A DNA stretch of 64,000 nt, from positions 1,178,001 to 1,242,000 of the forward strand of contig CP070276.1 in the NCBI GenBank assembly GCA_016916535.1. Reading direction: 5' to 3'. The position numbers and the translations under genes are program-made. This document shows, piece after piece, positions 2,958 through 45,592 of the stretch. This DNA comes from Dysgonomonadaceae bacterium zrk40 (lineage in GTDB: Bacteria > Bacteroidota > Bacteroidia > Bacteroidales > Dysgonomonadaceae). Within the stretch, counting starts at the first letter, position 1, and each line of letters begins with the position of its first letter. Under the pieces are notes generated by a model that searched no databases, had not been told where the DNA came from, and saw only the letters and a list, made by a program, of their open reading frames with translations.

Positions 2958-2965
2958 TTCTATCT

Positions 2966-6076: not shown

Positions 6077-6078
6077 CA

Positions 6079-11070: not shown

Positions 11071-11088
11071 TCTTAAACATACAAAAAG

Positions 11089-12894: not shown

Positions 12895-12905
12895 CTAAAT
12901 CAGTT

Positions 12906-12933
12906 GAGACTGTCTCCATCAGGAGGCAGTCTC
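12906..12933 (+). promoter_or_regulatory. Intercistronic hairpin between susD and GH43
   Basis: Arms 12906-12917 and 12922-12933 pair over 12 bases (one G-U pair) around the loop ATCA. There is no strong U-tract, so it may be an RNA-processing or stability element, or a weak terminator that lowers GH43 expression relative to susCD. Confidence 0.6.
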
Positions 12934-12950
12934 GTATTAATATTATCCAG

Positions 12951-14570: not shown

Positions 14571-14651
14571 AATAGCGCTCAACAAAACAACGGAATAATT
14601 GTAAACCTTGTCAGTTTTATGTTTCACCACCTTTAGGCATCAAAATCCACT

Positions 14652-17600
14652 TTACTTTTCAAGCAGATTACTGGGAGTGATGTTGAATTGTCTTGAAAAA
14701 CAGCGGGTGAAATATTTAGGATCATTAAATCCTACATCGTATGCGATATCAGCAATGTTTTTATTCTTTGTTTTTTTATTCTGCAAAATGATGTTATAAG
14801 CCAGATTCAGCCGGTATATCCGAATAAATTCACCTGCAGATTTCCCGCTTAATGCTTTTAGTTTTTTGTTTAAAAGTGATTTACTCACTCCCATTGCCTC
14901 AGCAAAATCGGTCACCTCAAAACTGGAATTTTGATAATTGTCATTCATCACCCCCAGTACCTGGTCCATGAATTTTTTATCATTTGACTCTTCACTGATC
15001 TCCAACGTTTCAACCGACATCTCATCCATAAACTTCTGCTGGTATCTATCTCGTGTTTCCAGAATATTACGGATACGAGTGAGTAACATATCTTCGTCAA
15101 ATGGTTTTACGATATAGGAGTCAACACCCATTCTATAACTGTCGGTACGTGCTTTTTCTGATGTTTTTGCAGTAAGCATTAGAAAAGGTATATGTGATAA
15201 AGTGAAATTTTCTTTCACTTTTTTAGAAAGCTCAAGACCATCCATCTTCGGCATCATCAAATCACTGATAATAAAATCCACATTATAATGCTCCAGTATC
15301 TCGTATGCTTCCACCCCATTGCTGGCCTCAAGTGTATTGTAGTATGGTGATAAAATGGAACAAACATAGCGACACATGTCTCTGTTGTCTTCCACAACGA
15401 GGATTGAAAGCCTCTCTCTTTGCCATTCCCTCAGGTTTTGCACATTATTATCACCCTCATCATTACCGTTCTCTGCTACAACATCTGGCACTTGCGACAG
15501 CGGATTGGAAGAGTGCAAAGGCAAGATGATCCGAAATGTTGTACCGGCTTGACGGTTGTTTTTGACCCAGATATTGCCTCCAAGCGCTTCAACCAACTGT
15601 TTGGTTAGATAGAGACCGATCCCGGTACCACTTTGTCCGTGTACGGGATAGATCAGATGGTTCTTCGATTGATAAAAACGCCGAAAAACTTTCTCCTTCT
15701 CTTCTTCCGGGATACCAATCCCACTATCTTTCACTGAAAGGTAAAGCTTTTCCTTGTTTGAAGTATTCTCCTTGAATGATTTCACATAAACTGTAATCTC
15801 CCCTCCGTTGGGGGTATACTTGATGGCATTTGAAATCAGGTTGGTCATGATCTTTCGGATTCCATCAGCATCGAAATAAAAATCCTGGCGAATAAAATCA
15901 ATTCTCCTTGCCAAATGAATAGCCCTGTCTGATGTCTGAAAATCGAATGGTGAAATCACAGACTCAATGAATTCGATAAAATCTCCTTTTGTGTAGCTCA
16001 CCTCTAACTTGTTCGATTCAATTTTTCTGAAATCCATCAACTGATTGATTAGAGTCAGTAAGTATTTGGAATTCCTTTCAGCAAACTTCAGCTGCTCTAC
16101 TACATAGGGATTGGTACTTAATTTCAATGCTCTTTCTACCGGACCAACAATCAAGGTGATGGGGGTACGGAATTCGTGTGATATATTGGTGAAAAAATCA
16201 ATTCTCTCAGTATTCATCTTTCGCATTTTACGAGACATCTCAATCAATTGCTCTTTCTGATGTGTAATTTTCTCATTTTGAGTGCTTAAAAGCTGATTCC
16301 GATTCGAGAGCTCATTTTTTTGTATCGTCAATACTCCTTTCTGTTTTTCAATCTCCGCTGTGCGATCATCCACTATTTGCTTTAGCATTTTCTGCTGATG
16401 TTCGTATGACCGGATACGCCAAAAATGAAGCATGATGATCGAAAGAATCGTAAGGAAGAGGATCAGAGAGATAAACCATGTTGTTTTGTAGAAAAAGGGT
16501 TTAATGCGAATATTGATTTGTGTTACCTCTCCGGCATCCAACTGTCCATTGCGTGCAAATTTAACCTGAAATTGATAATTGCCTGCAGGCAGGTTCATAT
16601 AGGTTGCGCTATGAGCGTTCTTCTCGAGTTTAATCCAGTCACCATCATAACCAACCAAACGATAGGCATATACATAATTGCTAATCGTACGATAATTTAG
16701 AGCCGAGAAATCGATGGAGAAAGATCTCGTCTTCTCATGCAGGATAATCTCCTCTGAAACAGATATATCTTCCCTGATGATTTTTCCTGGATGCACTCTT
16801 TCATTGTTTACATAGAAATCTGTCAACGTAACACCATACCCTGGACTATCCGATGCAATCATATCCGGGTTAACAGCAACCAATCCTTTTAAGGTCCCAA
16901 AATAGAGCAATCCACTCTTCGATTTAGAGTATGCGTTCCAATAAAACTGGTTGGAGACAAGGCCATCCTCTTCATAATAGTTTATAAAACTGATGGTTCT
17001 TTTGTTGAAGCATGACAATCCGTTGATCGTGCTTATCCAGAGATTGCCGTGGTCATCCTCCAGCAATCCCTTTACATTGTTATTGGCTAAACCGTCGGAG
17101 GTTGTATACGAGTGAAAAGAGTATGTACCATCATCTTGTATCGTGCATTTATAAATGCCGAAGCCATCACTTCCCAGCCATAAAACACCATCAGAATCAA
17201 TACAGAAGCTTGTGATCCTTTCAATCAACTTCGATTGGGGTTTGTCGAGTTTGTATTTCAAGTGAGTATAGCTGAAATAACCATCCACTTGACGGTCCAG
17301 ATCAATGACATATACCCCTTCCGTACACCCCAGCCACAATTGATTATTGTCATCGATCACCGATCCTATAATACCGTTGATGTGATCTGAAAGGTTATCC
17401 CGAAATGGCTTTTGCAGAATATCTTTATCTATATCATAGAAAAAGAGACCCTGGTTCGTCCCGATCCACATAGCATTGTTTTGTTGGTCATAGGAGAGTG
17501 CACCGACGAAATCGACCAGAAATTGGGGATAGAGTGCGCTGTTGATGTACTTCACCGGTAACATCCCGGGATGTTTCATATCGAGCAGGGTAACGCCAAA

Positions 17601-18899
17601 TCCCCATGTTCCAGTCCATAACCGTTGCGCTTCATCAATGCTTAAAGCACTCACGGAATTATGACTCAACCTGGCTGGTGACGAAGTTGTGTAATGGGTA
17701 AATACCTCCTCTCCTTTCTTCTTTAGATTCAAACCACCTTCAACTGTTCCGATCCAAAGATTTTCATCTTCATCCTCCAGAATCGCATTAACCGGATTAC
17801 GTGAAAGCGAACCCTCTATATTGTTATCATGTGTATAGTGTCTGATATAGGCGTTTCTTGGTGACAACTTATTAATCCCTCCTGTTTCTGTCCCCAGCCA
17901 AAGTATCCCCCTGTCACAATAAATCGCATTAATGAAATTGCTGTTCAATCCATTTGCATCTGAAGCATGTTCTGCATCTATCTGGTCGAAGTCATCGGAA
18001 GAAGCATTGTAGATGTTAATACCTCTCAACGTGCCAGCAATCAGTTGTCTGGCATCAGTCAATATCAGTTCTGATACGTAATCATGTGACAATGAGTGGG
18101 GATTATCCGACTGGCTCCTGTAACCCTTCAACACATCCTCGTTTCGATAGTACCTGTATAACCCACGATCGGTACCAATCCATACATCGTTCTCCTTGAG
18201 TAGAAACTTCATTATCATGGTTTTGGTCTCAAACTTTAACTTTTCTGACACAAGAACCGCTTTTAACCTGTTCTCTTCAGAAGGAAACAACTTATAAATT
18301 TCATTGTTAAAACCTGCCCACACATTTCCGTCATTGTCGATATCAGCCAATGCCACAAAAAGTTCACTTTCCAGATTATCCTCATACTTTAGAATATCCT
18401 GAATTGCACCGTCATCACCAAGTTGAATTTTATATATAACACTGGAATAGAGCCATATGTCACCATTTACATCCTTCATAATATTGATTACCGGGTTGTC
18501 AAGACAGGAGATACTGAGAGAATCTACTTCCGAAAACAGATCCACTTTTTGATGTTGACGTAAATCCAGCACATCCAGTCCCCCCTCCGAAGCAATCCAT
18601 AACCTGTTAAAATCATCTTCACACACCTTGTGTACAAAGTTCCCTTTTATGGATACAGGAATCGAGTGCATGTTGTAATGCACAAATTTATACCCGTCGT
18701 AACGAGATAGTCCTCCTCCTGTTGAGATCCAGAGGTAACCGGTTGCATCTTTAAAGATATCATCAATATAATGGTGCATCAATCCATCATCCATCGTGAC
18801 GAACTGTATGTCATACTCCTCTCCGGAAATTTTCTGTGCAGTCAGGTAGAGAGAATGCAAGATTAGAATGGCAATAAAAATAATAAGTTTCCTTTTCAT
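14652..18899 (-). CDS. Hybrid two-component system sensor/regulator (HTCS), arabinan-type
   Basis: A single protein of 1415 residues combines sensor and regulator. In order: signal peptide; periplasmic two-component-regulator propeller repeats (many copies of the LW(I/L)GT and DGLMHHYIDDIF type, to about residue 720); a Y_Y_Y domain (about 735-800); one transmembrane helix (about 808-828); coiled segment; histidine kinase with H-box NISHEFRTPITL (about 900) and ATPase motifs (NLISNAIKYTPNGG, GIGLYLTK); receiver domain with VVEDN and ISDLMMPKMDG (about 1162-1275); and a C-terminal AraC-type DNA-binding domain (about 1310-1415, ending DPKYFTRCFSRQFNITPS). Proteins of this kind sense an oligosaccharide in the periplasm and switch on the neighbouring polysaccharide locus. 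It is divergent from the GH43 gene at 19067; the ligand is inferred to be arabino-oligosaccharide. Confidence 0.95.
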   Translation of the reverse strand: MKRKLIIFIAILILHSLYLTAQKISGEEYDIQFVTMDDGLMHHYIDDIFKDATGYLWISTGGGLSRYDGYKFVHYNMHSIPVSIKGNFVHKVCEDDFNRLWIASEGGLDVLDLRQHQKVDLFSEVDSLSISCLDNPVINIMKDVNGDIWLYSSVIYKIQLGDDGAIQDILKYEDNLESELFVALADIDNDGNVWAGFNNEIYKLFPSEENRLKAVLVSEKLKFETKTMIMKFLLKENDVWIGTDRGLYRYYRNEDVLKGYRSQSDNPHSLSHDYVSELILTDARQLIAGTLRGINIYNASSDDFDQIDAEHASDANGLNSNFINAIYCDRGILWLGTETGGINKLSPRNAYIRHYTHDNNIEGSLSRNPVNAILEDEDENLWIGTVEGGLNLKKKGEEVFTHYTTSSPARLSHNSVSALSIDEAQRLWTGTWGFGVTLLDMKHPGMLPVKYINSALYPQFLVDFVGALSYDQQNNAMWIGTNQGLFFYDIDKDILQKPFRDNLSDHINGIIGSVIDDNNQLWLGCTEGVYVIDLDRQVDGYFSYTHLKYKLDKPQSKLIERITSFCIDSDGVLWLGSDGFGIYKCTIQDDGTYSFHSYTTSDGLANNNVKGLLEDDHGNLWISTINGLSCFNKRTISFINYYEEDGLVSNQFYWNAYSKSKSGLLYFGTLKGLVAVNPDMIASDSPGYGVTLTDFYVNNERVHPGKIIREDISVSEEIILHEKTRSFSIDFSALNYRTISNYVYAYRLVGYDGDWIKLEKNAHSATYMNLPAGNYQFQVKFARNGQLDAGEVTQINIRIKPFFYKTTWFISLILFLTILSIIMLHFWRIRSYEHQQKMLKQIVDDRTAEIEKQKGVLTIQKNELSNRNQLLSTQNEKITHQKEQLIEMSRKMRKMNTERIDFFTNISHEFRTPITLIVGPVERALKLSTNPYVVEQLKFAERNSKYLLTLINQLMDFRKIESNKLEVSYTKGDFIEFIESVISPFDFQTSDRAIHLARRIDFIRQDFYFDADGIRKIMTNLISNAIKYTPNGGEITVYVKSFKENTSNKEKLYLSVKDSGIGIPEEEKEKVFRRFYQSKNHLIYPVHGQSGTGIGLYLTKQLVEALGGNIWVKNNRQAGTTFRIILPLHSSNPLSQVPDVVAENGNDEGDNNVQNLREWQRERLSILVVEDNRDMCRYVCSILSPYYNTLEASNGVEAYEILEHYNVDFIISDLMMPKMDGLELSKKVKENFTLSHIPFLMLTAKTSEKARTDSYRMGVDSYIVKPFDEDMLLTRIRNILETRDRYQQKFMDEMSVETLEISEESNDKKFMDQVLGVMNDNYQNSSFEVTDFAEAMGVSKSLLNKKLKALSGKSAGEFIRIYRLNLAYNIILQNKKTKNKNIADIAYDVGFNDPKYFTRCFSRQFNITPSNLLEK

Positions 18900-18918
18900 G
18901 ATATCCTTTCAATACAGA

Positions 18919-18926
18919 CAAATGTA
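18919..18926 (-). promoter_or_regulatory. -7 box for the HTCS gene
   Basis: On the minus strand TACATTTG lies 20 bases before the HTCS start codon. The -33 region is AT-rich without a clear TTTG. Confidence 0.5.
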
Positions 18927-18984
18927 AAAATAATATTCAACTTAAATAAGTTAAAAAAGAATCGATTTAGGGTATTATTTCATT

Positions 18985-19041
18985 TATCCACCTTCTGTGT
19001 TCATTTCTCTACCCTTTCGTTAAAAAATAATATTTTGTTTG
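18985..19041 (+). promoter_or_regulatory. GH43 promoter with the same paired TCCACC-like half-sites
   Basis: TCCACC at 18987-18992 and TCTACC at 19008-19013 are 21 bases apart, and a -7-like box TTTGTTTG lies at 19034-19041. Aligned without gaps to 1091-1147, both half-sites, a central TCA and the -7 box fall in register. It sits in the divergent space between HTCS and GH43. Confidence 0.6.
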
Positions 19042-19066
19042 TACGTAAATCTCAATATCAAAAAAC

Positions 19067-20575
19067 GTGAGAAAGAAAGCCCATCTGCTACTACCCAGTT
19101 TATCTTTTATTGTTATCCTGTCACTATTTATGCTCTCCTGTAAGCAAGGACAACAATTAACCATCCCGGAGGAGAAACCCAATCCATGGGTTGATGATTA
19201 CACGCATCTCTCACAAATGGAGCATTACAAAGAGTGGGGGACCTACAACGTACATGATCCGGCAATTAAAAAGTTCGGTGACGATTACTATATCTATTCT
19301 ACCGATGCCATCTTCGCGGAAAACCCGGATAGAGCCGAAGAAATGAACGTTCCTCTTGGGAATATTCAGATCAGGAAATCAAAAGATCTTGTTCACTGGG
19401 AGTTCGTGGGGTGGGCGTTCTCTGAAATTCCAAAGGAGGCCGTTCACTGGGTGCATACTAATAATGAAGGCAGTGGGGCGACCAATATCTGGGCACCCTA
19501 CGTGATGAAACAGGGGGATCGATACAGGCTCTACTATAGCGTCTCGGCATTTGGGAAAAAAACCTCCTGGATTGGCCTGGCCGAATCCGATTCTCCTGAG
19601 GGACCATGGGAACAAAAAGGGGCTGTAGTGAAAAGCAACAGTAAAACACCTGTGAATGCCATTGATCCAAGCGTGGTAGTAGATCAGGAGAATGGCAGGA
19701 TCTGGATGCATTACGGATCCTATTTCGGTGGATTGTATTGCGTGGAGCTCGATCCGGCGACAGGATTAACCATGAAAAAAGATGACCTTGGTCATCTGAT
19801 TGCACGCAGAGCAAATTACAGGAAAGACAACCTTGAAGCACCTGAGATTATTTATAACTCCAAGTTGAAGAAGTACTTTCTATTTGTGTCGTACGACCCG
19901 TTAATGACAACCTACAATATCCGTGTGGGACGTTCAGATAAACCGGAGGGCCCCTTTCTGGACTATTTCGGGGAAAACATGAGTGACACCACCAACAATT
20001 ATCCTGTCATTGTAGCACCTTATCAGTTCAATAATCATCCCGGATGGGCAGGTACGGGGCACTGCGGAGTCGTGGTTACTGACAACGGAGAATATTTCAT
20101 GGTACATCAGGGACGTCTTTCTCCGGGAAACCATCTGATGGTACTAAATGTCAGGCAGCTCTTCTTCACTCCTGACGGATGGCCTGTCGCCTCTCCGCAG
20201 AGATTTGCAGGAGGCATTAGAGAGGAGGTCTCTGAAAAGGTGATATCAGGTGAATGGGAGTTGATAAGGATCCGTGAGTCGGTTTACGAACGAGAGCTTG
20301 AGGCAGGTCAGATACTGTGGGGGGAAGGTGAACTGCATGAGAATGAGTGGAACAAATCGTTTCATTTGAACCTGAACAGAGATGGCTCTACTGACAATAA
20401 TGGTTCATGGAGTTTTGAAGAACAAAATCAAACCTTGCTACTCACGATTGGAGAAGAAACAATCCGAAATTTGTATCTCTTTTTCGGGCAAGATTGGGAA
20501 AACCAGAATCAAACACTTCTCTTCACAGGATTGGATGATAAAGGCCGTTCGGTGTGGGGTAAACGAACAAAGTAA
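19067..20575 (+). CDS. GH43 arabinanase-like lipoprotein with C-terminal barrel
   Basis: Starts at GTG; the following residues form a lipoprotein signal with lipobox FMLSC (about residue 25). GH43 acids are visible in NVHDPA (about 63), NAIDPS (about 199) and LEAPEI (about 258). The C-terminal 110 residues (from SGEWELIRI) form the small beta-barrel domain of endo-arabinanases. The layout matches the GH43 at 12951, but the sequences differ enough for separate roles, for example linear versus branched arabinan. It is the first gene after the divergent regulator and has the candidate regulator site in front of it. Confidence 0.88.
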   Translation: MRKKAHLLLPSLSFIVILSLFMLSCKQGQQLTIPEEKPNPWVDDYTHLSQMEHYKEWGTYNVHDPAIKKFGDDYYIYSTDAIFAENPDRAEEMNVPLGNIQIRKSKDLVHWEFVGWAFSEIPKEAVHWVHTNNEGSGATNIWAPYVMKQGDRYRLYYSVSAFGKKTSWIGLAESDSPEGPWEQKGAVVKSNSKTPVNAIDPSVVVDQENGRIWMHYGSYFGGLYCVELDPATGLTMKKDDLGHLIARRANYRKDNLEAPEIIYNSKLKKYFLFVSYDPLMTTYNIRVGRSDKPEGPFLDYFGENMSDTTNNYPVIVAPYQFNNHPGWAGTGHCGVVVTDNGEYFMVHQGRLSPGNHLMVLNVRQLFFTPDGWPVASPQRFAGGIREEVSEKVISGEWELIRIRESVYERELEAGQILWGEGELHENEWNKSFHLNLNRDGSTDNNGSWSFEEQNQTLLLTIGEETIRNLYLFFGQDWENQNQTLLFTGLDDKGRSVWGKRTK

Positions 20576-37768: not shown

Positions 37769-37852
37769 GCCCAGATGGCGGAATTGGTAGACGCGCTGGT
37801 CTCAAACACCAGTGGATTCACTTCCATGCCGGTTCGATCCCGGCTCTGGGTA
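37769..37852 (+). tRNA. tRNA-Leu (anticodon CAA)
   Basis: An 84-base class II tRNA. Acceptor stem GCCCAGA pairs with TCTGGGT (one G-U pair); the anticodon stem CTGGT/ACCAG encloses the loop CTCAAAC, giving CAA, which reads TTG. The long variable arm (GTGGATTCACTTCCAT region) and the T-arm GGTTCGATCCC are present; discriminator A at 37852; CCA is not encoded. Its last 11 bases form the left attachment site of the integrated element. Confidence 0.95.
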
Positions 37853-37853
37853 C
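37842..37853 (+). repeat. attL core
   Basis: GGCTCTGGGTAC, overlapping the T-stem end and acceptor stem of tRNA-Leu; identical to 45321-45332. Confidence 0.85.
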
Positions 37854-37870
37854 AGTTTCAACCTTGTAAT

Positions 37871-37898
37871 CACCCTGTAATCAATAGGTTATGGGGTG
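37871..37898 (+). terminator. Element-borne terminator replacing the tRNA-Leu terminator
   Basis: CACCCTGTAATC pairs fully (three G-U pairs) with GGTTATGGGGTG around the loop AATA, followed by TTTATTTAT. The sequence resembles the displaced host hairpin at 45348-45377. Confidence 0.65.
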
Positions 37899-37910
37899 TT
37901 TATTTATCCA

Positions 37911-37932
37911 AAGTATCAAAATAGTAACGTTA
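37911..37932 (+). repeat. Left integrase arm-type site
   Basis: 22 bases beginning AAGTATCAAAATAGTA, 21 of 22 identical to 45183-45204 near the right end and in the same orientation. Direct repeats inside both ends of an element are typical of arm-type sites for a tyrosine recombinase. Confidence 0.6.
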
Positions 37933-38070
37933 GGCAACCGATGTTATCGTTTGTAGGTGAAAATGTATCTGTAATTTATAACCGTTATATTCAGAAAAAA
38001 CATCATCCTTTGGGTAGTAATAAATTGACTATTTTCATCCCGCCAGCATCAGGGGAAAATGTTAAATACC

Positions 38071-38175
38071 TCTCTCGCTTCATTTCAGCCCCTCTGTGGC
38101 ATTTATAAGGCTTTCCGCATATCTACCTACTCAAAATAATTATCGTGCCTTAAATCGCCTTAAAATGGCCTGTTT
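38071..38175 (+). repeat. ~105-base imperfect direct repeat, copy 1
   Basis: Diverged match to 39328-39435; the best conserved parts are GCCC(C)TCTGTG and the tail CGCCTTAAAATGGC(C/T)TGTTT. The two copies bracket the 63-residue gene. Confidence 0.5.
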
Positions 38176-38404
38176 GCCCTTTGCGCTCTCTTTAATTGCA
38201 TAGATAATTGAAGCACCTTCACCGATACCACCATAGCATCATCAGAATAACAACGGCATCAGGATAACAGCTACATATCAGTCAGGAATCAATCAACTTG
38301 TTATCGGTCGGTCGCTGATTTGTTTGCGAAAGCTCTGTAAATATTTTAGGGGGAATGTCAGTTATTCTATTTAGCACCATTGCCAGAAGGTGTGTTATCT
38401 ATCT

Positions 38405-38686
38405 TTATTTTAACGTGATACGTGCGTTATGTCGTGCACGATATATCTTTTTATTTAGAATGGTTCTATATAATAAATCGGCTTCGGAGGGTAAGAGTAG
38501 GCAGGTAGTGAGAGAATGGGTCGGTTGCTTCTCATCAACTAAACATCGCTTCATTTTCAAGTTCCCAACTTGGGCACTTGATTTTACAAAGTGTTCAATT
38601 TGAATACTCTGCTCCTTATCGTACTGTTTTACAATGGTTTTGGGTGATTTTCCCGAAGTGTCAAATTGACAACTCGGGAAGTCCAT
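38405..38686 (-). CDS. Hypothetical protein, doubtful
   Basis: A 93-residue frame on the same strand as the other element genes. Its middle (KEQSIQIEHF) is basic and polar and is partly duplicated, in the same codon phase, in a start-less frame at about 38760-38803 (KEQSTQNEA). No domain is recognised. The region may be the remains of a duplicated gene or simply non-coding. Confidence 0.3.
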   Translation of the reverse strand: MDFPSCQFDTSGKSPKTIVKQYDKEQSIQIEHFVKSSAQVGNLKMKRCLVDEKQPTHSLTTCLLLPSEADLLYRTILNKKIYRARHNARITLK

Positions 38687-38864
38687 GGTTTTTGGCTCTG
38701 TTCATATTGAATAGTACCACTTATGGTGGATTGATACAGACTTCCGAAAATCGGAACTCTCTACTTTTTCAGGTGAGCCTCATTTTGAGTACTTTGTTCC
38801 TTAATGTGTTGATTTATACGGGGTGTTCCGCTTTGATACCATTATAGATAATATTAACGGCATT

Positions 38865-38888
38865 AAAAAAGCGGGAAGTATCTCCCGC
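38865..38888 (-). terminator. Rho-independent terminator of the 63-residue gene
   Basis: On the minus strand GCGGGA (38888-38883) and TCCCGC (38876-38871) pair around a 6-base loop and are followed by six T. It starts 8 bases after the stop codon. Confidence 0.85.
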
Positions 38889-38895
38889 CATTCTT

Positions 38896-39087
38896 TTAAT
38901 CCAATTCAAAACGAATGCACCTTGCGACAAGTTTAGTCAGTTCATCATTCGCCTGGTCAATCGCCAATAGAAAGTTCTCCATTACTTCATCGTGTTCATC
39001 ACCGCTATAAATTCCAGCCATGACATCACCAACAACATCGGAAGCTCTGTTAATGTCTTTGTACGCTTTAGTCAATTCTTCATTCAT
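38896..39087 (-). CDS. Small acidic hypothetical protein with its own promoter and terminator
   Basis: 63 residues, rich in Asp and Glu, predicted helical (MNEELTKAYKDINRASDVVG and LLAIDQANDELTKLVARCI). No known domain is recognised. Support for a real gene comes from its surroundings: a consensus promoter (-33 TTGC, 19-base spacer, -7 TATCTTTG at 39113-39120) just upstream and a strong terminator just downstream, so it is transcribed alone. A three-codon upstream ORF (ATG ATG TTA TGA) overlaps the start. Genes expressed alone from integrated elements are often maintenance, immunity or regulatory factors, but nothing here proves a role. Confidence 0.7.
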   Translation of the reverse strand: MNEELTKAYKDINRASDVVGDVMAGIYSGDEHDEVMENFLLAIDQANDELTKLVARCIRFELD

Positions 39088-39112
39088 AACATCATTTTTT
39101 TAAGTTATTCGG

Positions 39113-39143
39113 CAAAGATAAACAGCTTTAAAATGCTGTGCAA
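39113..39143 (-). promoter_or_regulatory. Consensus promoter of the 63-residue gene
   Basis: Minus strand: TTGC -33 box, 19-base spacer, TATCTTTG -7 box (39120-39113). Confidence 0.8.
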
Positions 39144-39327
39144 TAGCTTTATAAATATATAACAATGCAACAGAAAAACGTTATCCGAAGTTTAATTGAA
39201 ACACTATTTTGCAGGAATATTGTTTGAGTAGTTAAACCGAAAGAAACAATCGCTATCTTTGTGGGTGGAATGTTGCGTTTTTGAAATGTTAAAAACAACC
39301 TATGTTAAGGATATATCTTTAATAGCC

Positions 39328-39435
39328 CCTCACGCTTATTTTAAAGCCCTCTGTGACACTTTTAACATGCTCTGAATATATAGATACCGCCCGAATAAAA
39401 ATAATAGCTTAAAACGCCTTAAAATGGCTTGTTTT
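39328..39435 (+). repeat. ~105-base imperfect direct repeat, copy 2
   Basis: Second diverged copy of 38071-38175, in direct orientation, directly beyond the 3' end of the HD-type gene. Confidence 0.5.
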
Positions 39436-39498
39436 AAAAAAGAGAGGGAAACAACCGTCTCCCCCTCCAACACAGACAAAACACAAAAACCAAAAGCA

Positions 39499-40404
39499 CT
39501 ATTCTATTGTTGTTTTCATTATCTCCCTCAAATATTCATCGTAATGTTCGGCATAGTAAGAACCTATCTCGGTCGCCATTAAATCGGGGTCGGGTGTGAT
39601 ACCTCTATATGGCAAGTCCAAACGGTCAGCATCGAAGCAAATGTCTATTAAGGTATCACCGCTTCTTAACATTGTAGAATGATGCTTACAAGCAAAAGAA
39701 AGCCTGTCAACATCCACCATCTCTAATTTGTTGCGCCCTCTGCTCTGCTCTATCACTTCCGAAGCCCTCTCGCCGTGTTCAGGGTCGTGGTCTTTGCTTT
39801 TCATCACGTCGTGCCAATAAGCGAAAGCACTAACGTTGTTTTTTACCGCCATCTTTCGGCATAACAAGTTTATCCCTTTGTCAACTCTCAAAGAGTGAGG
39901 GAATCCATCAGGTAAGGAAAAAACCCCTTCCCCTGTGAGTTCTGCTTCTTTGAAATATTCCCGCATCATGGCGCACCCCTCTCTGTAATAGGCAATCCCA
40001 TCCTTCCGAAGCATTACATTAGTGACGTGAGGGAAAACAGGGAAACGCTTCCCAAATTGTTTGTGGGTCAGCACCTCAACAATGTTGCCCCTCGAAATTG
40101 CAACCTCATTAGAGTTAATAAATAAAATGTCTCTTTTGTCTGCTTCGATTTTTAGAAAATTCACCTTGGCACAATCAACAAAACCCCAATAAATAAACTT
40201 GGCATATCCTGTTAAGACTTGCCCCTCCTGTACGCAAAAAATGCCTGGTTTATCAGCGGAAACGGCTTTTGCATTCTTATCCCATTTTTTCGGTTCGGTA
40301 TATTGTTCCGAAAGCGGGGATTTACCCGCAAGGTTATATCGCCAAAGGGTGATTTTCCACTCATCAGGAATGTGAAAAGGTTCTTTGTAAAATGTCAGGT
40401 TCAT
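39499..40404 (-). CDS. HD-domain-like putative hydrolase
   Basis: 301 residues. The N-terminal half (to about 165) has no recognised domain. The C-terminal part carries an HD-superfamily pattern: His-Asp in FAYWHD (198-199), DHDPEHGERA (205-214), a His pair in ACKHHS (241-242) and Asp in CFDADRLDLPYRGITPDP (258, 260, 263). The CFDADRLDL...GI.PDP signature is one I associate with a group of uncharacterised HD-like bacterial proteins. HD proteins cleave phosphate esters, including nucleotides; dNTPase, nuclease or cyclic-nucleotide activity are possible but unproven. It is the last gene of the primase operon and a possible cargo or anti-phage gene. The substrate is unknown. Confidence 0.65.
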   Translation of the reverse strand: MNLTFYKEPFHIPDEWKITLWRYNLAGKSPLSEQYTEPKKWDKNAKAVSADKPGIFCVQEGQVLTGYAKFIYWGFVDCAKVNFLKIEADKRDILFINSNEVAISRGNIVEVLTHKQFGKRFPVFPHVTNVMLRKDGIAYYREGCAMMREYFKEAELTGEGVFSLPDGFPHSLRVDKGINLLCRKMAVKNNVSAFAYWHDVMKSKDHDPEHGERASEVIEQSRGRNKLEMVDVDRLSFACKHHSTMLRSGDTLIDICFDADRLDLPYRGITPDPDLMATEIGSYYAEHYDEYLREIMKTTIE

Positions 40405-40450
40405 ATCTGTTTAAATAAGGCAGGGGGATAAACCCCCCGCCAGCGTTAAT

Positions 40451-40624
40451 TTACTTATCATCAGGTATCTGCCCCGTTAGCTTCAATTTTTCGATAAAGG
40501 CAGAAAAGTCGGGCTTTTGTTTCTTTTCCGCATCGGGGTAGGTGGTGTCAACCCTCTGTTTAAGTTCATTAACGGTGTTGATTAATTCTTTAGCCCATTC
40601 AGGGGCTTCATTTTTGTTCTCCAT
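40451..40624 (-). CDS. Small hypothetical protein (57 residues)
   Basis: ATG at 40624-40622, stop TAA at 40453-40451. The product (MENKNEAPEWAKELINTVNE...PDDK) is charged and helical, with no recognised domain. It begins one base after the stop of the 220-residue gene, so it is almost certainly co-translated with it. Confidence 0.55.
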   Translation of the reverse strand: MENKNEAPEWAKELINTVNELKQRVDTTYPDAEKKQKPDFSAFIEKLKLTGQIPDDK

Positions 40625-40625
40625 A

Positions 40626-41288
40626 TTATTGCTTTTTGAAAGTGTTTAAGAATATATTTTGAAAATTTTCGGGTGTGGAAAACTTGTCTTTAAATTCCTT
40701 TACAGACAAATTCGGTGGTGCCATGTAAACGCCTTGCATTCCCATCGATATGGAAGCAGGGTTAAAAGTACAGTCAGGCAAGCCATTCTTTTCTTCATAG
40801 TTCCGAAGGTCGCCAATCGCTTCCACTACCTTGTTTACTTGCTCCCAATACGCTTGCATCTTTGAAGCATCAATCTTTGTTGTCGCTTCTTTCTTTGCAA
40901 GTTCGTCTATTTTCTCCATATCCACCGAAATAGAGTCATCAACAGGGATAAGGGGAAGCCGTGCTATTCTCATTCGCCGAATAGCATTCACATCGGGAAT
41001 CAATCGGGAATAGAACTCATTCAACTCATCAGCGTTGCGCTGTATCTCGGCAACTGTGAGGAATTTACCCCTTTGTCTCTCTTGCCCCTGCTTATCAACC
41101 CATTCTCTGAAAGCCCCTTCGTTATGGGTAATTGACTCTATAAACTTCCAATCCGTTGGCAATCCCTCTGCTGAAATGGAAGCTAACAAGTCGGGAAGCT
41201 GTTCCGACATTAACTCAAATTTTTTCTTTGTGTCATTAAAGATTTTTTCGTTGAAAATCTCATCGCTGAATAGTTTTTCTTTTTTCAT
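40626..41288 (-). CDS. Hypothetical protein of 220 residues
   Basis: No family recognised. The protein is mostly helical and charged, without signal peptide or membrane segment, so cytoplasmic. A central segment (IDELAKKEATTKIDASKMQAYWEQVNKV) could form a coiled coil. Its start overlaps the stop of the upstream 55-residue ORF by ATGA, which makes translational coupling clear. Its place between primase and HD protein suggests a part in replication or in the cargo function, but nothing in the sequence decides this. Confidence 0.7.
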   Translation of the reverse strand: MKKEKLFSDEIFNEKIFNDTKKKFELMSEQLPDLLASISAEGLPTDWKFIESITHNEGAFREWVDKQGQERQRGKFLTVAEIQRNADELNEFYSRLIPDVNAIRRMRIARLPLIPVDDSISVDMEKIDELAKKEATTKIDASKMQAYWEQVNKVVEAIGDLRNYEEKNGLPDCTFNPASISMGMQGVYMAPPNLSVKEFKDKFSTPENFQNIFLNTFKKQ

Positions 41289-41452
41289 AGTTCATTGGTT
41301 TTTGTTTTTGTTGGTGCATTTTCATCGGGTGCACCGCTCTCCCATTGCTGTAATATTGTTCCGTTGCGCTCCAATTCAAAGAGTATGTCGCTAAAACTTT
41401 TTTGGGGTTCAAAGTCATCATCAAAGTCATCATCAAAGTAAAAGTCTTCCAT
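41285..41452 (-). CDS. Small acidic hypothetical protein (55 residues)
   Basis: Starts at 41452 (MEDFYFDDDFDDDFEPQ) with a strongly acidic N-terminus containing a direct repeat of FDDD; stop at 41285-41287 overlaps the next start (ATGA), and its own start overlaps the previous stop by one base (TGATG). Very acidic small proteins can be DNA mimics, so inhibition of a DNA-binding enzyme is one possibility, not shown by the sequence. Confidence 0.55.
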   Translation of the reverse strand: MEDFYFDDDFDDDFEPQKSFSDILFELERNGTILQQWESGAPDENAPTKTKTNEL

Positions 41453-41598
41453 CAGGTGTTGGGTTTTAGTTTTATCAGGTTGGTGTCCCTATTCCAAATC
41501 AAAACAAAATCATCGGAGTGATAAATCTCATTCCATTTTGTGGAGCGCAAAAAACGCATATCGTATTTTTTTATCAGTTCATTTTTCAAGTCCTTCAT
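41452..41598 (-). CDS. Small hypothetical protein (48 residues)
   Basis: MKDLKNELIKKYDMRFLRST... ending LKPNT. It has a good Shine-Dalgarno-like GGGAGGT 8 bases upstream that lies inside the end of the primase gene, and its stop overlaps the next start (TGATG). Length is consistent with a regulatory or structural microprotein; no domain is recognised. Confidence 0.5.
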   Translation of the reverse strand: MKDLKNELIKKYDMRFLRSTKWNEIYHSDDFVLIWNRDTNLIKLKPNT

Positions 41599-41603
41599 TT
41601 TTT

Positions 41604-42446
41604 TTACCTCCCAATCGTTATACCGTAATTTTTAGCCAACCAAAAAAACGTAGCAATCGAATAGCCCTTTCCTCTCAAAATAGCATCAAATTGCTCATCG
41701 CATTGCTCTCTGTTATATCGTGAATCCATTGAAGAAAGGTCGTGAAACATCTGCCTGCCATTGGGAACATCCCGAAGGGAACAGGCAAGCGAAAGCCAAT
41801 CGCTGTACCGCTCGGTAATGTTCTTACCGCTCGCCATTATAGCATCATAGAGTAATTGAATCCCTCTGTCTGTGCCTGCATAGTCCTTTCGCTCTGCTCT
41901 AATCGGCTCGATTAACTTGTCGTAGGTGTCGGCATCCTCTTTGATAAATGGGTTTTCGTTATACGACATAAACCTGTAACGGCTCACATCCCGCCCGCTT
42001 CGGTCAACAATAACATCAGGGTTTAAATCAGCGACAAGGGCATCAAAGTGTTGGGTGTGTCGCTCGGTGTGTTTTATCGGCACTATGAGGAAAGCACCCT
42101 TGCCCGAAACACTTAATCCCGCATAGGCAATGAAGGGATATTTGCTTCCGACATCGTGAATGAATCTTTGCCAATCGGAGATATGTAGGTTATCTTTGGC
42201 ATCGACATCAAGGCATATATATCCGCTATGCTGAATCAGCCCTTTGGCTTTACGCTCGCTAAACAAGCCCGAAGGGGTGAAGCCAGGTAGTTGTTTCTTT
42301 TTCTTCGAGCGCATATCGGCATCGCTCATTGTCCTTATTGCTTCGACCTTTGCCCGATACCTGTCATTCATCAGGCACCACCATAGGTTGGTATCTCTCG
42401 GCTCGCTACCGTAGTAGCTGAAAAAACTTATTCTCGATTTTTGCAT
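41604..42446 (-). CDS. Stand-alone primase (BT4734/VirE-N-like plus PriCT-2)
   Basis: 280 residues. The N-terminal domain (to about 185) is of the BT4734/VirE N-terminal-like type often found in Bacteroidetes mobile elements: YICLDVDAKD (metal-binding acidic residues), AGLSVSGKGAFLIVPI and DRSGRDVSRYRFMSYNENPF resemble archaeo-eukaryotic primase motifs. The C-terminal part (about 205-275, YSDWLSLACSLRD and FFWLAKNYG) looks like a primase C-terminal PriCT-2 domain. The helicase domain that usually follows in longer relatives is absent, so host or helper helicase must be used if it initiates replication. It lies right beside iteron-like repeats (42481-42545). Confidence 0.78.
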   Translation of the reverse strand: MQKSRISFFSYYGSEPRDTNLWWCLMNDRYRAKVEAIRTMSDADMRSKKKKQLPGFTPSGLFSERKAKGLIQHSGYICLDVDAKDNLHISDWQRFIHDVGSKYPFIAYAGLSVSGKGAFLIVPIKHTERHTQHFDALVADLNPDVIVDRSGRDVSRYRFMSYNENPFIKEDADTYDKLIEPIRAERKDYAGTDRGIQLLYDAIMASGKNITERYSDWLSLACSLRDVPNGRQMFHDLSSMDSRYNREQCDEQFDAILRGKGYSIATFFWLAKNYGITIGR

Positions 42447-42480
42447 AAAACTTTCTCTCTATTCTATCTATAAAAACTGA

Positions 42481-42545
42481 ATTGTTTGTATTGTTTGTAT
42501 TGTATTGGTAGCATTTGAATACGAACGTATACAAACGTATACAAG
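42481..42545. repeat. Iteron-like short tandem repeats; candidate replication origin
   Basis: Two 9-base units ATTGTTTGT (42481-42498) plus a partial third, then 10-base units (G/A)AACGTATAC at 42523-42532 and 42533-42542 preceded by a partial GAATAC. They fill the gap between the DUF6291-type gene and the primase gene. Confidence 0.55.
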
Positions 42546-42932
42546 TCAGAAGGGCATATCATTGTCACCCTCATAGGCGAGTTGTTTATACTTCATCTCC
42601 TTTTCGCCCGGCTCATTTGCCACGTTTTTTGTTTCGGGTTCAACCGCATCCCCTTTTGCCTTAACGCTGTTCCAATATTCCTGAATTGCTTTGGCGTTCT
42701 TTTCGCAGCGCTCTCGGTACGCCTCCACGTCATCATCTATTGCCTGTCGCATCGTGTCAAATATCATCTGTTTCGCTCTATCGCCAAAGGTTGGTATCAC
42801 GCCATCTATACGATAATCGAAGATTGCAAACATTACTTCCCCCGCCTCTTCCGCTGTCAGTACCCTGAATAAGGGGATAGATTCAAGTCTTATCAGCAAC
42901 GGAGCGTTCTCGCTCTTACTCTTTCTTGCCAT
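42546..42932 (-). CDS. DUF6291-type phage/element protein
   Basis: 128 residues opening MARKSKSENAPLLIRLES, then EAGEVMFAIFDYRIDGVIPTF and FDTMRQAIDDDVEAYRERCEKNA. This matches my recollection of DUF6291 proteins found next to replication genes in Bacteroidetes and Firmicutes phages. The Lys-rich C-terminal tail may bind nucleic acid. Function unknown; helper of replication initiation is a reasonable guess from its position between regulator and primase. Confidence 0.7.
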   Translation of the reverse strand: MARKSKSENAPLLIRLESIPLFRVLTAEEAGEVMFAIFDYRIDGVIPTFGDRAKQMIFDTMRQAIDDDVEAYRERCEKNAKAIQEYWNSVKAKGDAVEPETKNVANEPGEKEMKYKQLAYEGDNDMPF

Positions 42933-42962
42933 TACTCTGTGAATTTTGTTTTTGGATTGTGT

Positions 42963-43148
42963 TTATTTACCTAAAAGCCAGTTAATTAAAGCCTGTTTTT
43001 CTATGAATATCATTTTTCCGCTCGGCTTGTTAGCGGGAATCTTACCCGCTTTAATCAGGTTGTAAATCGTTATCTTTGACATACCTGTGATGATGCACGC
43101 TTCATCGACCGTTAGAACCTCTTTGTTCGCTAAATCATTGTATTCCAT
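42963..43148 (-). CDS. Excisionase/MerR-like helix-turn-helix protein
   Basis: 61 residues almost entirely made of an excisionase-family HTH: VLTVDEACIITGMSKITIYNLIKAGKIPANKPSGKMIFIEKQALINWLLG. First gene of the primase operon, expressed from the promoter at 43204-43234, whose transcript start is covered by an 18-base perfect palindrome (43182-43199). Autoregulation is therefore likely. Similar in fold but not identical to the protein at 43519. Confidence 0.8.
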   Translation of the reverse strand: MEYNDLANKEVLTVDEACIITGMSKITIYNLIKAGKIPANKPSGKMIFIEKQALINWLLGK

Positions 43149-43181
43149 ATTAATACCTCTTTATTACATTAGTATATAACA

Positions 43182-43199
43182 TTAATTAATATTAATTAA
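43182..43199. promoter_or_regulatory. 18-base perfect palindrome, candidate operator
   Basis: TTAATTAATATTAATTAA lies at the expected transcription start of the primase operon. Confidence 0.5.
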
Positions 43200-43203
43200 C
43201 TAT

Positions 43204-43234
43204 CAAATGTAAGAATAAGGAATCAAATAGGCAA
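43204..43234 (-). promoter_or_regulatory. Promoter of the primase operon
   Basis: Minus strand: TTGC (43234-43231), 19-base spacer, TACATTTG (43211-43204). Confidence 0.75.
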
Positions 43235-43435
43235 GCGTTTTTGCCCTGCCGACCGCCGCCAAACAAGTCATTCGGTACCGCCTATTGTTATATGTCTGTT
43301 AAATAGTGTGTTAATATAGGTGCGAAGCATCGGTCGTTTGGTGCGACCTCGGCTCATAGTGTAGAATATTTCCCCATTGATGAAAAAACCGCTTCAATTA
43401 TTTTGCCAACAAAAGAAAATAACAGGAATGCTTCT

Positions 43436-43459
43436 GAAAAATCGGGGGGAAATTTGTGT
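43436..43459 (+). repeat. 24-base direct repeat, copy 1
   Basis: Begins GAAAAATCGGGG and ends AATTTGTGT; 22 of 24 bases match 43934-43957. The copies flank the excisionase-like gene at 43519-43800. Confidence 0.55.
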
Positions 43460-43518
43460 TTTGATGGTATAAGCAAGCGGGTGCTCTGGGCACTCTGCTG
43501 CTTTGGTTGAGAAGGTTA

Positions 43519-43800
43519 TTAGCTCACTTTATTAGCGTGGCAGTAGTTAACGGCTTGTTGCTCTATTTCGTCTGCCGTCTTAATGGGGTTTCTTAGCATC
43601 CACCGTTCAAGCTCCGACCGGTCGAAATAAATCAGCTTCCCGCTGGGTTTGTAGTAAGGTATCTTACCGCTTGCTGTAAGTTTATAAAGGTAGCTTTTAG
43701 CCAATCCCGTGAACATAACAGCTTCCTCAAATGTAAGCACGTTCTTTTGCAACATCACCCCTTTTTCGATCCTCTCCAGCCGCTCCATCAGTTCATCCAT
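43519..43800 (-). CDS. Excisionase-like helix-turn-helix protein
   Basis: 93 residues. An N-terminal helical segment (MDELMERLERIEKGVMLQ) precedes an excisionase-type HTH (TFEEAVMFTGLAKSYLYKLTASGKIPYYKPSGKLIYFDRSELERWML). Proteins of this type bend the attachment site and direct integrase to excision, or act as regulators. It lies next to the integrase, 205 bases away, with its own promoter at 43859-43890, so excision directionality can be controlled separately from the integrase. Confidence 0.8.
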   Translation of the reverse strand: MDELMERLERIEKGVMLQKNVLTFEEAVMFTGLAKSYLYKLTASGKIPYYKPSGKLIYFDRSELERWMLRNPIKTADEIEQQAVNYCHANKVS

Positions 43801-43858
43801 AAATCACCAAATTAAATTAATACTATATTATCTACCTATTTATCAGGTGACAATAGTA

Positions 43859-43890
43859 CGAATATACGCAAAATAAATGAAAATAAGAAA
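43859..43890 (-). promoter_or_regulatory. Promoter of the excisionase-like gene
   Basis: Minus strand: TTTC (43890-43887), 20-base spacer, TATATTCG (43866-43859). Confidence 0.6.
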
Positions 43891-43933
43891 CGTTTATCTG
43901 GGAAGTTATCAACCATCGGGAACGAATATTTTG

Positions 43934-43957
43934 GAAAAATCGGGGAAAAATTTGTGT
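43934..43957 (+). repeat. 24-base direct repeat, copy 2
   Basis: 22 of 24 bases match 43436-43459. Confidence 0.55.
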
Positions 43958-43981
43958 CGTATGGAAGCCCCAAATTCAGCC

Positions 43982-44004
43982 CACCCCCATAGGGGGGTGC
44001 ACCC
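43982..44004 (-). terminator. GC-rich hairpin after the integrase gene
   Basis: CACCCCC (43982-43988) pairs with GGGGGTG (43993-43999), and an overlapping palindrome GGGGTGCACCCC offers an alternative fold. No U-tract follows, so it may attenuate rather than end transcription. Confidence 0.45.
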
Positions 44005-45126
44005 CTAAAGATAGTCAGGAAGGGAATTTATTGCTTTCTTTTTTAGGTCATCAGCTATACGTGTGTACTTCTCCGTATGTTTCAGGCTTGTATGCCCGAG
44101 TGTTGCGGATAATGTTTTTATATCAGGCTTGTTATCCCCCTTTAACGTCAACAGGTTAACGGCGAAACTGTGGCGTGCGCAATGCCACGTTATATGCTTG
44201 CTAATCCCTGCACGCTTCACCAATGCTTTTAACGTCTTATTGCACGCGGTGTGGCTTGGTAGATAAAAAACATTCTCCTCTGGGCTTCTCTGCTCACCGA
44301 TAAGTTTTAATGCTGTTCTGTTCAGGTCAATGGTTACAAGCTTGCCCGTCTTTTGCTGGTCTATGGTCATCCGCTCTGCCCCGAAATCAATATCGCTAAA
44401 CTTTAAATCATTAACGTCACAGAAACGCAATCCAGTAACACACGAAAAGAGAAAAGCTCGCTTTACTTCATCGCTTTGGCACTCGGTGCGTGCTATCTGT
44501 GTTATTTCATCATTCGTTAGTATGTCCTTTCTTGCCCCCTCGTCTGTTTTGAATATCACCCCCTCCGTTGGCATCCTGTTTATCAGCCCTTCGGCAACAG
44601 CCCTCCGAAGCACCTTTTTAAACCTTTGGTAATACCCGTGTGCGCCCTCTCCCACGCTCCTACCTTTCAAATACTGTACGAAATCAGTCATCATCAGGCT
44701 TGTTATCTGGTCAGTTCTTAATGTCTTTTGGTTTAGCTTCGGTTGTTCTTCGGTCAGAAAATTCTTAAACCTTTTTATTGCACCCTGCACCATCCGAATA
44801 TCTTTCTTTTGGTAATTAGAAATGTAGTTATCAGCAAAAGTAAAAAAGGCAACCTTCCTCTTTGTCGGTGAAACCATGCCGTGTTGTGTGTGATTGAGTT
44901 CTCTCTCCCGCTCCGTCCTTATCTGTTCAGCCAGTTCCCTTGTTTCCTTGTTTGCCTGCCGTTCCAACGGTGTGCGGGCTTTTACAAGGTACAATTTCAA
45001 AAACTCATAGGTGTGCGCCCCACCTCTATAAGTGTCCAGAAACAGGCTTATATTGCCGTTAGCAAGCTCCCGCTCCCTTAATACCACGTTGTTCTTTTTT
45101 AAACCTCTTCTTGTTTTCATAACCAT
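44005..45126 (-). CDS. Tyrosine-type site-specific integrase
   Basis: 373 residues with the Bacteroidetes phage-integrase layout: N-terminal arm-binding domain, SAM-like core-binding domain (about 105-210) and catalytic domain. Catalytic residues are visible: Arg in CVTGLRFCDV, Lys in the beta-hairpin near QQKTGK, HxxR in HCARHSF, His in LGHTSLKHTEKY and Tyr in TEKYTRI. It recombines the 12-base core inside tRNA-Leu. It is the gene nearest the right end, transcribed inward from a consensus promoter, and replaced the downstream side of the tRNA on insertion. Confidence 0.95.
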   Translation of the reverse strand: MVMKTRRGLKKNNVVLRERELANGNISLFLDTYRGGAHTYEFLKLYLVKARTPLERQANKETRELAEQIRTERERELNHTQHGMVSPTKRKVAFFTFADNYISNYQKKDIRMVQGAIKRFKNFLTEEQPKLNQKTLRTDQITSLMMTDFVQYLKGRSVGEGAHGYYQRFKKVLRRAVAEGLINRMPTEGVIFKTDEGARKDILTNDEITQIARTECQSDEVKRAFLFSCVTGLRFCDVNDLKFSDIDFGAERMTIDQQKTGKLVTIDLNRTALKLIGEQRSPEENVFYLPSHTACNKTLKALVKRAGISKHITWHCARHSFAVNLLTLKGDNKPDIKTLSATLGHTSLKHTEKYTRIADDLKKKAINSLPDYL

Positions 45127-45146
45127 CAGGAATTAATGTTCTTTGG

Positions 45147-45178
45147 CAAAGATAATGAATGTTGGGTACATAACCAAC
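45147..45178 (-). promoter_or_regulatory. Integrase promoter overlapped by a palindrome
   Basis: Minus strand: TTGG (45177-45174), 19-base spacer, TATCTTTG (45154-45147). The inverted repeat GTTGG-N8-CCAAC (45161-45178) covers the -33 box and spacer, a likely operator. Confidence 0.7.
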
Positions 45179-45182
45179 GAAA

Positions 45183-45204
45183 AGTATCAAAATAGTATCG
45201 TTAA
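45183..45204 (+). repeat. Right integrase arm-type site
   Basis: 21 of 22 bases match 37911-37932; sits just upstream of the integrase promoter. Confidence 0.6.
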
Positions 45205-45320
45205 ATAAATTATCATTATCCAATAAAGAGAAAATAAACCTTAATGTTAAATCGCTATATCGCTGTTTTTCTGTTGTGTTAGTTTCCTTTGTTAACCTTT
45301 TTTTAGAGGGGTTATGTATT

Positions 45321-45332
45321 GGCTCTGGGTAC
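45321..45332 (+). repeat. attR core
   Basis: GGCTCTGGGTAC, identical to the tRNA end at 37842-37853; chromosomal DNA that originally followed tRNA-Leu resumes after it. Confidence 0.85.
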
Positions 45333-45510: not shown

Positions 45511-45592
45511 GGTTCTAATCTCGTTCTAATATGGTTCTAATATGGTTCTAATATGGTTCTAATATGGTTCTAATAGATTCGAACCATATTAG
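45511..45592. repeat. Six 11-base tandem units plus an inverted copy
   Basis: Units of GGTTCTAATAT (first two and last slightly changed) at 45511-45576, then an inverted copy; CTAATATGGTTC (45559-45570) pairs perfectly with GAACCATATTAG (45581-45592). Confidence 0.8.

Follow-up and report, generated by a model that had tools for sequence, protein, structure and literature searches.

In this work, we analyzed a stretch of 64,000 nucleotides from the genome of Dysgonomonadaceae bacterium zrk40 (contig CP070276.1, positions 1,178,001 to 1,242,000; hereafter, the window), and specifically an element of 7,479 bp, measured core to core, that lies between two 12-bp copies of the 3' end of a tRNA-Leu(CAA) gene. 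We consider it likely that this element, known here from sequence alone, is a minimal, helper-dependent phage satellite. An earlier note on the same DNA had proposed this from the window only; it remains the best of the readings compared, and the relatives lend it more support than the window does by itself. Among 20 loci encoding the small protein p48 and/or the protein p220, the two hallmarks of the group, some relatives carry TerS, tape-measure or capsid genes and none carries terminase, portal and capsid genes together. The features of the element are the following, in window coordinates (values in e-notation are expectation values, E).

37769..37853, plus strand: tRNA-Leu(CAA), the integration target (ARAGORN)
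37842..37853, plus strand: left core, GGCTCTGGGTAC, the 3' end of tRNA-Leu(CAA)
37854..38895, no strand: about 1 kb beside the left end, no recognised gene
37910..37932, plus strand: left arm-type repeat, candidate integrase arm site
38896..39087, minus strand: p63, function not assigned; relative in locus L050
39499..40404, minus strand: HD-domain phosphohydrolase-like protein of 301 aa (HDIG match at 2.5e-4, below threshold)
40451..40624, minus strand: p57, function not assigned
40626..41288, minus strand: p220, hallmark protein
41285..41452, minus strand: p55, function not assigned; shares 1 and 4 bp with the neighbouring genes
41452..41598, minus strand: p48, hallmark small protein of the element group
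41604..42446, minus strand: primase with BT4734_N and PriCT_2 domains, 280 aa
42447..42545, no strand: candidate origin, an AT-rich gap that precedes the primase and contains short repeats
42546..42932, minus strand: DUF6291 protein
42963..43148, minus strand: xis2, second small HTH_17 protein
43519..43800, minus strand: xis1, HTH_17/AlpA-like protein (PF12728 1.6e-11; PF05930 22.7 bits, cut-off 21)
44005..45126, minus strand: tyrosine integrase, 373 aa (PF00589 1.3e-21)
45181..45203, plus strand: right arm-type repeat, 22 of 23 positions identical to the left one
45321..45332, plus strand: right core, identical 12 bp

The comparison set of 20 loci includes the window (L and G numbers denote loci and genomes). 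TerS was found in eight of them, TerL in one, capsid in three, tape measure in four and portal in none, and an integrase was recognised in 16; these counts rest on few reference proteins, which include those of L037, L106, L109, L110 and BI-TP1 themselves, the profile-library scans covered loci other than L143 to L151, and contig ends truncate several of the 20 loci (L050, L051, L143, L145, L147 and L148, among others). TerL, portal and capsid stand together in none of the 20, in all four prophage stretches examined (L107 to L110) and in the viral contig L089, and L055 and L057, which are separate stretches of a single phage, each hold part of the set. A locus with integrase, HTH and primase genes and neither p48 nor p220, which ends just after the primase (L036), was excluded from the 20, and the primase relatives L038 to L041 stood outside the comparison.

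The virion genes of the relatives form partial kits of different composition. Protease, capsid and tape measure occur in three loci: in L037 (132-14073) a head protease (5.9e-41), a capsid (4.4e-28) and a tape measure (1.7e-11) lie within 13.9 kb, and L148 and L150 (3315-15864) are of the same kind by match to L037; the capsid gene of L148 is split in two, and its contig contains runs of N; no terminase or portal was found in any of the three. One locus, L034, combines a TerS-like gene with a gene for a tape-measure-like protein of 1,371 residues (1.1e-9 to the PHROG tape-measure family). The genome of L034 (G024, of the same genus as the window's genome) holds a further island, L106 (G024:C4:78000-97999, 9941-19845), with TerS (2.8e-35), TerL (3.2e-31), a head-morphogenesis protein (7.2e-52) and DnaB, in which no portal or capsid was found; a p174 gene is common to both islands (8e-102). 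L106 also holds the best match of the window integrase among the eight compared (34%, 1e-61), and L149, which has TerS, is similarly close to the window (integrase 4e-60, xis1 3e-30).

The earlier note had named structural genes in relatives as the sign of a decayed prophage, and this applies in part: some relatives have such genes, and their sets differ and are partial. A group descended from complete phages, having lost its head and tail genes differently and kept its integration and replication genes, would explain why the relatives retain different virion genes, and also why recognised genes leave about one third of the window element uncovered (coding density 67.7%). We nevertheless regard this history as unlikely. 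It fits less well because the kits of the relatives differ and are partial, several relatives are exact-ended and small, and p220 was found neither in phage records nor, by pattern-based scans, in IMG/VR. Furthermore, all eight full-length p220 genes (window, L033, L034 and L050 to L054) are open without stops, the other seven being 17-46% identical to the window copy; p48 was found neither in phage records nor in the phage loci compared (IMG/VR not included); and exact ends, closely packed genes and an intact integrase also speak against it.

The hallmark genes are sparsely distributed. Counting the window's own genome each time, p220 occurs in 3 of 101 relatives and, by profile, in 2 of 393 genomes of the order and 6 of 101 of the family; a wider profile reached 7 of the 101, the addition being a 70-position piece with two stops in G043, excluded from the full-length count. 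The phylum search gave 4 of 395 genomes, three of them marginal, and these three matches (E near 0.001, covering 67-93 of the 216 positions) were judged to be chance. The search for p48 gave 17 places, spread over 14 of the 101 family genomes; five loci have it together with p220 (window, L033, L034, L050 and L051). The nearest relative by p220 is L050 (46%), which also has xis1, p57, p63 and the end of a gene like that of the 301-residue HD-domain protein, and which is cut by contig ends and contains gaps. A p57 family member accompanies p220 in two loci in which TerS was not seen, L033 and L050, and in five relatives p220 lies beside or near TerS.

Several relatives have ends of their own: L033 at tRNA-Gln (attachment repeat of 16 bp, element of 6,225 bp), L034 at tRNA-Arg (46 bp; 12,431 bp) and L052 at tRNA-Cys (13 bp; 9,682 bp). 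No attachment repeats were found for L051 and L053, and there was no tRNA in the stretches examined of L054 and L050. L053 is near the same tRNA-Leu(CAA) beside manC, with DNA-invertase-type recombinase genes between. Beside the p220 element of L053, at 1662-7508, lie genes that by eye are fimbrial or surface-protein-like and could be cargo.

The TerS genes link some relatives to a known group of temperate phages. TerS of L034 matches 6 of 50,697 records, all of them LoVEphage-type (49% over 75 aa, residues 86-160; best 6e-13). A profile of five satellite TerS proteins (set A3) matched the TerS of LoVEphage-type phages and viral contigs, namely L107 (6e-32), L089 (3.5e-26), L088 and L055 (1e-20), L090 (1e-18), L092 (4e-14) and a split copy in L093 (4.5e-5 and 6e-4). 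The TerS role is supported by gene position in L089, where TerL, portal and one more gene (262 residues) come before it. The PHROG TerS matches are weak (L089 0.006, L034 0.018), four of the five A3 members match no TerS family, and the structure model of TerS (predicted local distance difference test score, pLDDT, 55.7) was too poor for a structure search; the other three TerS genes (L106, L144 and L149) are of a different, PHROG-recognised type. Besides, a gene of L051 matches LoVEphage gp25. Small proteins of L034 and L051 that looked by eye like gp36 gave no PHROG match at E up to 1 and were set aside. LoVEphage TerL relatives occur in 10 of the 101 family genomes, five at E 7e-75 or better, and one weak match is L106 itself. 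These homologies make it plausible that LoVEphage-type temperate phages are the helpers of the TerS-bearing relatives, and they give indirect support to induction and packaging by a helper phage.

In the window element itself, no structural, packaging or relaxase family was significant among the ten proteins scanned with Pfam and PHROGs (the eleventh, p63, was scanned with NCBIfam and PADLOC only), which bears out the earlier statement that structural, packaging and conjugation genes are absent; a complete virion gene set is lacking, and no head, tail or terminase gene was found. The protein p220 has a weak PADLOC match (0.0036), and the best of its five structure models reached a pLDDT of 74.7, the others 45-53. 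Two assignments were rejected: p220 as a phage virion protein, for which a match to phrog_13138 ('virion structural', 0.0032) was the sole support, and p57 as a scaffold or DinI relative, for which the matches were weak. The family phrog_13138 was found in 0 of 101 family genomes, a weak test given that it was also found in 0 of 14 control genomes.

Several observations weigh against the satellite reading: (i) no TerS, capsid-remodelling gene or known pac or cos site was found in the window element, (ii) p220 has no fold or sequence match giving a function, with no Foldseek match under E 0.7, (iii) p220 was not found in IMG/VR (pattern-based scans) or in phage records, so that no trace of packaging was seen, (iv) none of the seven short contigs tested for circularity had a terminal overlap, and excision was not observed, (v) LoVEphage TerL relatives and Terminase_6N were not found in the window's genome, and (vi) the L034 tape measure is not LoVEphage-specific, as 135 phage records match it, others better than LoVEphage. 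Relatives of the primase and integrase were likewise not found in IMG/VR by pattern-based scans, and the window element gave no DNA match to the LoVEphage-type phages PQ571265 and MW660583. No resident helper was seen in the window's genome, where the two phrog_2 matches are by eye a helicase-like protein and PhoH rather than terminases. Satellites need not have a resident helper. A fecal virome record, MT835707, was discarded as a relative, its match being to xis1 only, on a contig that by eye holds conjugative-element-like genes.

The ends of the element are well defined. The core GGCTCTGGGTAC occurs twice in the window, at the two element ends, and not on the opposite strand. Outside support comes from two related genomes. 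In G017 (L060), manC, tRNA-Leu and enolase are contiguous and a similar terminator follows the core, as in an empty site. In G035 (L059, 1-175), which is closest to the window's genome by enolase (93%), the DNA before the shared core and right flank is different and non-tRNA up to where the contig end cuts it, which indicates that a different insert occupies the same tRNA-Leu core. Enolase matches were obtained in 95 of 101 family genomes, and 30 enolase loci were compared, including that of the window's genome; ARAGORN placed tRNA-Leu(CAA) near enolase in three (L060, L061 and L066, at spacings of about 0.13, 0.25 and 1.1 kb), the search of the remaining loci being for the core only. The element has a GC content of 40.8%, lower than the 47.9% of the remaining window. 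Tandem ATGGTTCTAAT-like repeats lie just beyond the right end, at 45520-45575.

Inside the cores, a 23-bp direct repeat with one mismatch lies 56 bp from the left core and 117 bp from the right one, and occurs nowhere else in the window with up to six substitutions allowed; when the 200-bp end pieces were shuffled 20 times at constant base composition, the best pair never had fewer than six mismatches (range 6-9). The repeat is of the kind bound by the arm domains of integrases and is a candidate arm site. L033 and L034 have element-specific repeats of their own near both ends, and L037 showed no end repeat beyond its core (exact 13-mers). The gap before the primase (99 bp, 73% AT) is the candidate origin, and a packaging site could lie in the stretch next to the left end in which no gene was recognised. 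Imperfect direct repeats of about 90 bp at 38087-38175 and 39337-39434 (80% identity over a 41-bp core) enclose p63 together with some 1.2 kb of largely non-coding DNA, in the manner of a cassette insertion.

All genes of the element lie on the minus strand, in the order, from the right end, integrase, xis1, xis2, DUF6291, primase, p48, p55, p220, p57, HD-domain-like protein and p63. The intact integrase, excisionase-like genes, primase and exact ends claimed earlier were all confirmed: the integrase has an arm-binding domain and the catalytic residues R...HxxR...H...Y; two HTH_17 genes are present, xis1 scoring above the cut-off for both PF12728 and PF05930 and being 51% identical to its copies in L106 and L050; and the primase has both of its domains. 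The DUF6291 protein may be a replisome organiser. Since the gaps between primase, p48, p55, p220 and p57 are only 5, -1, -4 and 1 bp, these genes are probably co-expressed. The HD-domain-like protein, with 32-34% matches to six phage records, is a probable cargo. A 34-bp repeat (82%) upstream of xis2 (43426-43459) and of xis1 (43924-43957) may be a regulator site, and the primase matches a PADLOC model for a primase-like protein of a reverse-transcriptase defence group (5e-21).

The primase is the argument for a further alternative, an integrative and mobilizable element (IME), like the nonreplicating Bacteroides units (NBU), or a cis-mobilizable island moved by a conjugative element. Primases of the BT4734_N/PriCT_2 type are common in Bacteroidales conjugative and mobilizable elements, and relatives of this one occur in 19 of 101 genomes, the window's own included. 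Mobilization of this kind is nonetheless improbable, slightly more so than prophage decay: no relaxase or Mob family was detected at E up to 1 in the scanned proteins, the related islands carry TerS, TerL or capsid genes, and the element DNA had no match in 72,556 plasmids. An immobile genomic island that lost transfer and is kept for its cargo, the HD-domain protein, would agree with the single p220 copy and with no resident helper having been found in this genome, but is very improbable given the intact integrase, both cores and both arm repeats.

For the satellite reading, the following course of events can be proposed. A helper phage would switch on the HTH_17 proteins, which with the integrase would excise the element as a circle; DUF6291 and the primase would replicate it; p220, p57 and p48 would steer helper replication or packaging towards the element, whose DNA would leave in helper particles and integrate in a new tRNA-Leu. 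Because TerS is absent, we can only infer the packaging route of the window element. It is tempting to speculate, as a tentative idea with somewhat less than even chances, that the element is the bare form of a large, as yet undescribed superfamily of Bacteroidales satellites built on an integrase-AlpA-replication-p48(-p220) chassis, whose members each captured a different morphogenesis part of temperate phages (TerS; TerS, TerL and head-morphogenesis protein; protease, capsid and tape measure; tape measure with TerS), and whose TerS-less members redirect packaging via p220 and p57 by a new mechanism.

The phage satellites known so far come chiefly from staphylococci, enterobacteria, vibrios and lactic acid bacteria, and the open-licence literature searched, which leaves out most subscription papers and bioRxiv, named none from Bacteroidales, a dominant gut order. 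A satellite group tied to LoVEphage by TerS homology would give a testable helper-satellite pair and, in p48 and p220, two marker proteins for finding more such elements. To carry a tape-measure gene while lacking portal and large terminase would be an unusual parasitic strategy. In one study, LoVEphage was the most often detected of the inducible prophages and was present in about 8% of gut viromes (PMC12629997). LoVEphage-type phages such as PQ571265 and MW660583 have TerS homologous to that of the satellite relatives, most strongly in the C-terminal part, a gp25-like gene in common with one relative and a tape measure related among many others; they are complete phages of about 71 kb (PMC8525569, in part), in contrast to the 7,479 bp of the window element.

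Among known systems, phage-inducible chromosomal islands (PICI), including the Staphylococcus aureus pathogenicity islands (SaPI), carry an integrase, an AlpA-type gene, a replication block and their own TerS or capsid-redirecting gene, and are small; some cos-type PICIs lack TerS. The window element is like them in integrase, AlpA-type gene, replication block and size, and some relatives have TerS, but it has no TerS or capsid-redirecting gene of its own, and no Stl, Ppi or Cpm gene was recognised in it. L037, L148 and L150 resemble capsid-forming PICIs in their protease and capsid genes but differ in having a tape measure as well, and neither portal nor terminase was found in them; the window element has none of these. 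P4-like satellites differ by their Psu/Delta/Sid-type genes, none of which was named in the Pfam and PHROGs scans of the element proteins, IME and NBU by a relaxase or Mob gene, and prophages by head, tail and terminase genes. With phage satellites in general the element shares its own integrase, site-specific integration, the lack of a complete virion gene set and a size within the typical 6-18 kb (PMC11389934, in part). In gene content the element is also close to the phage-inducible chromosomal minimalist islands (PICMI) of Vibrionaceae, as presented in PMC10803314: few genes, integrase with AlpA (PF05930/PF12728), primase, genes of unassigned function, small size and no capsid-remodelling genes. 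The PICMI primase domains DUF3987/DUF5906 are replaced in the window by BT4734_N/PriCT_2 (a DUF3987 protein is present in L033), the insertion is in tRNA-Leu instead of next to fis, which is mandatory in one PICMI model and optional in another (PMC10803314, in part), and the phylum and the p48 and p220 genes are different. The small gene set of the element is no contradiction, because a packaged PICMI satellite has been described that consists of six genes, three of them with unassigned function and the others being integrase, alpA and primase (PMC10803314, in part). The element falls outside the defining features of both PICMI and PICI, and resembles them in the logic by which it would work.

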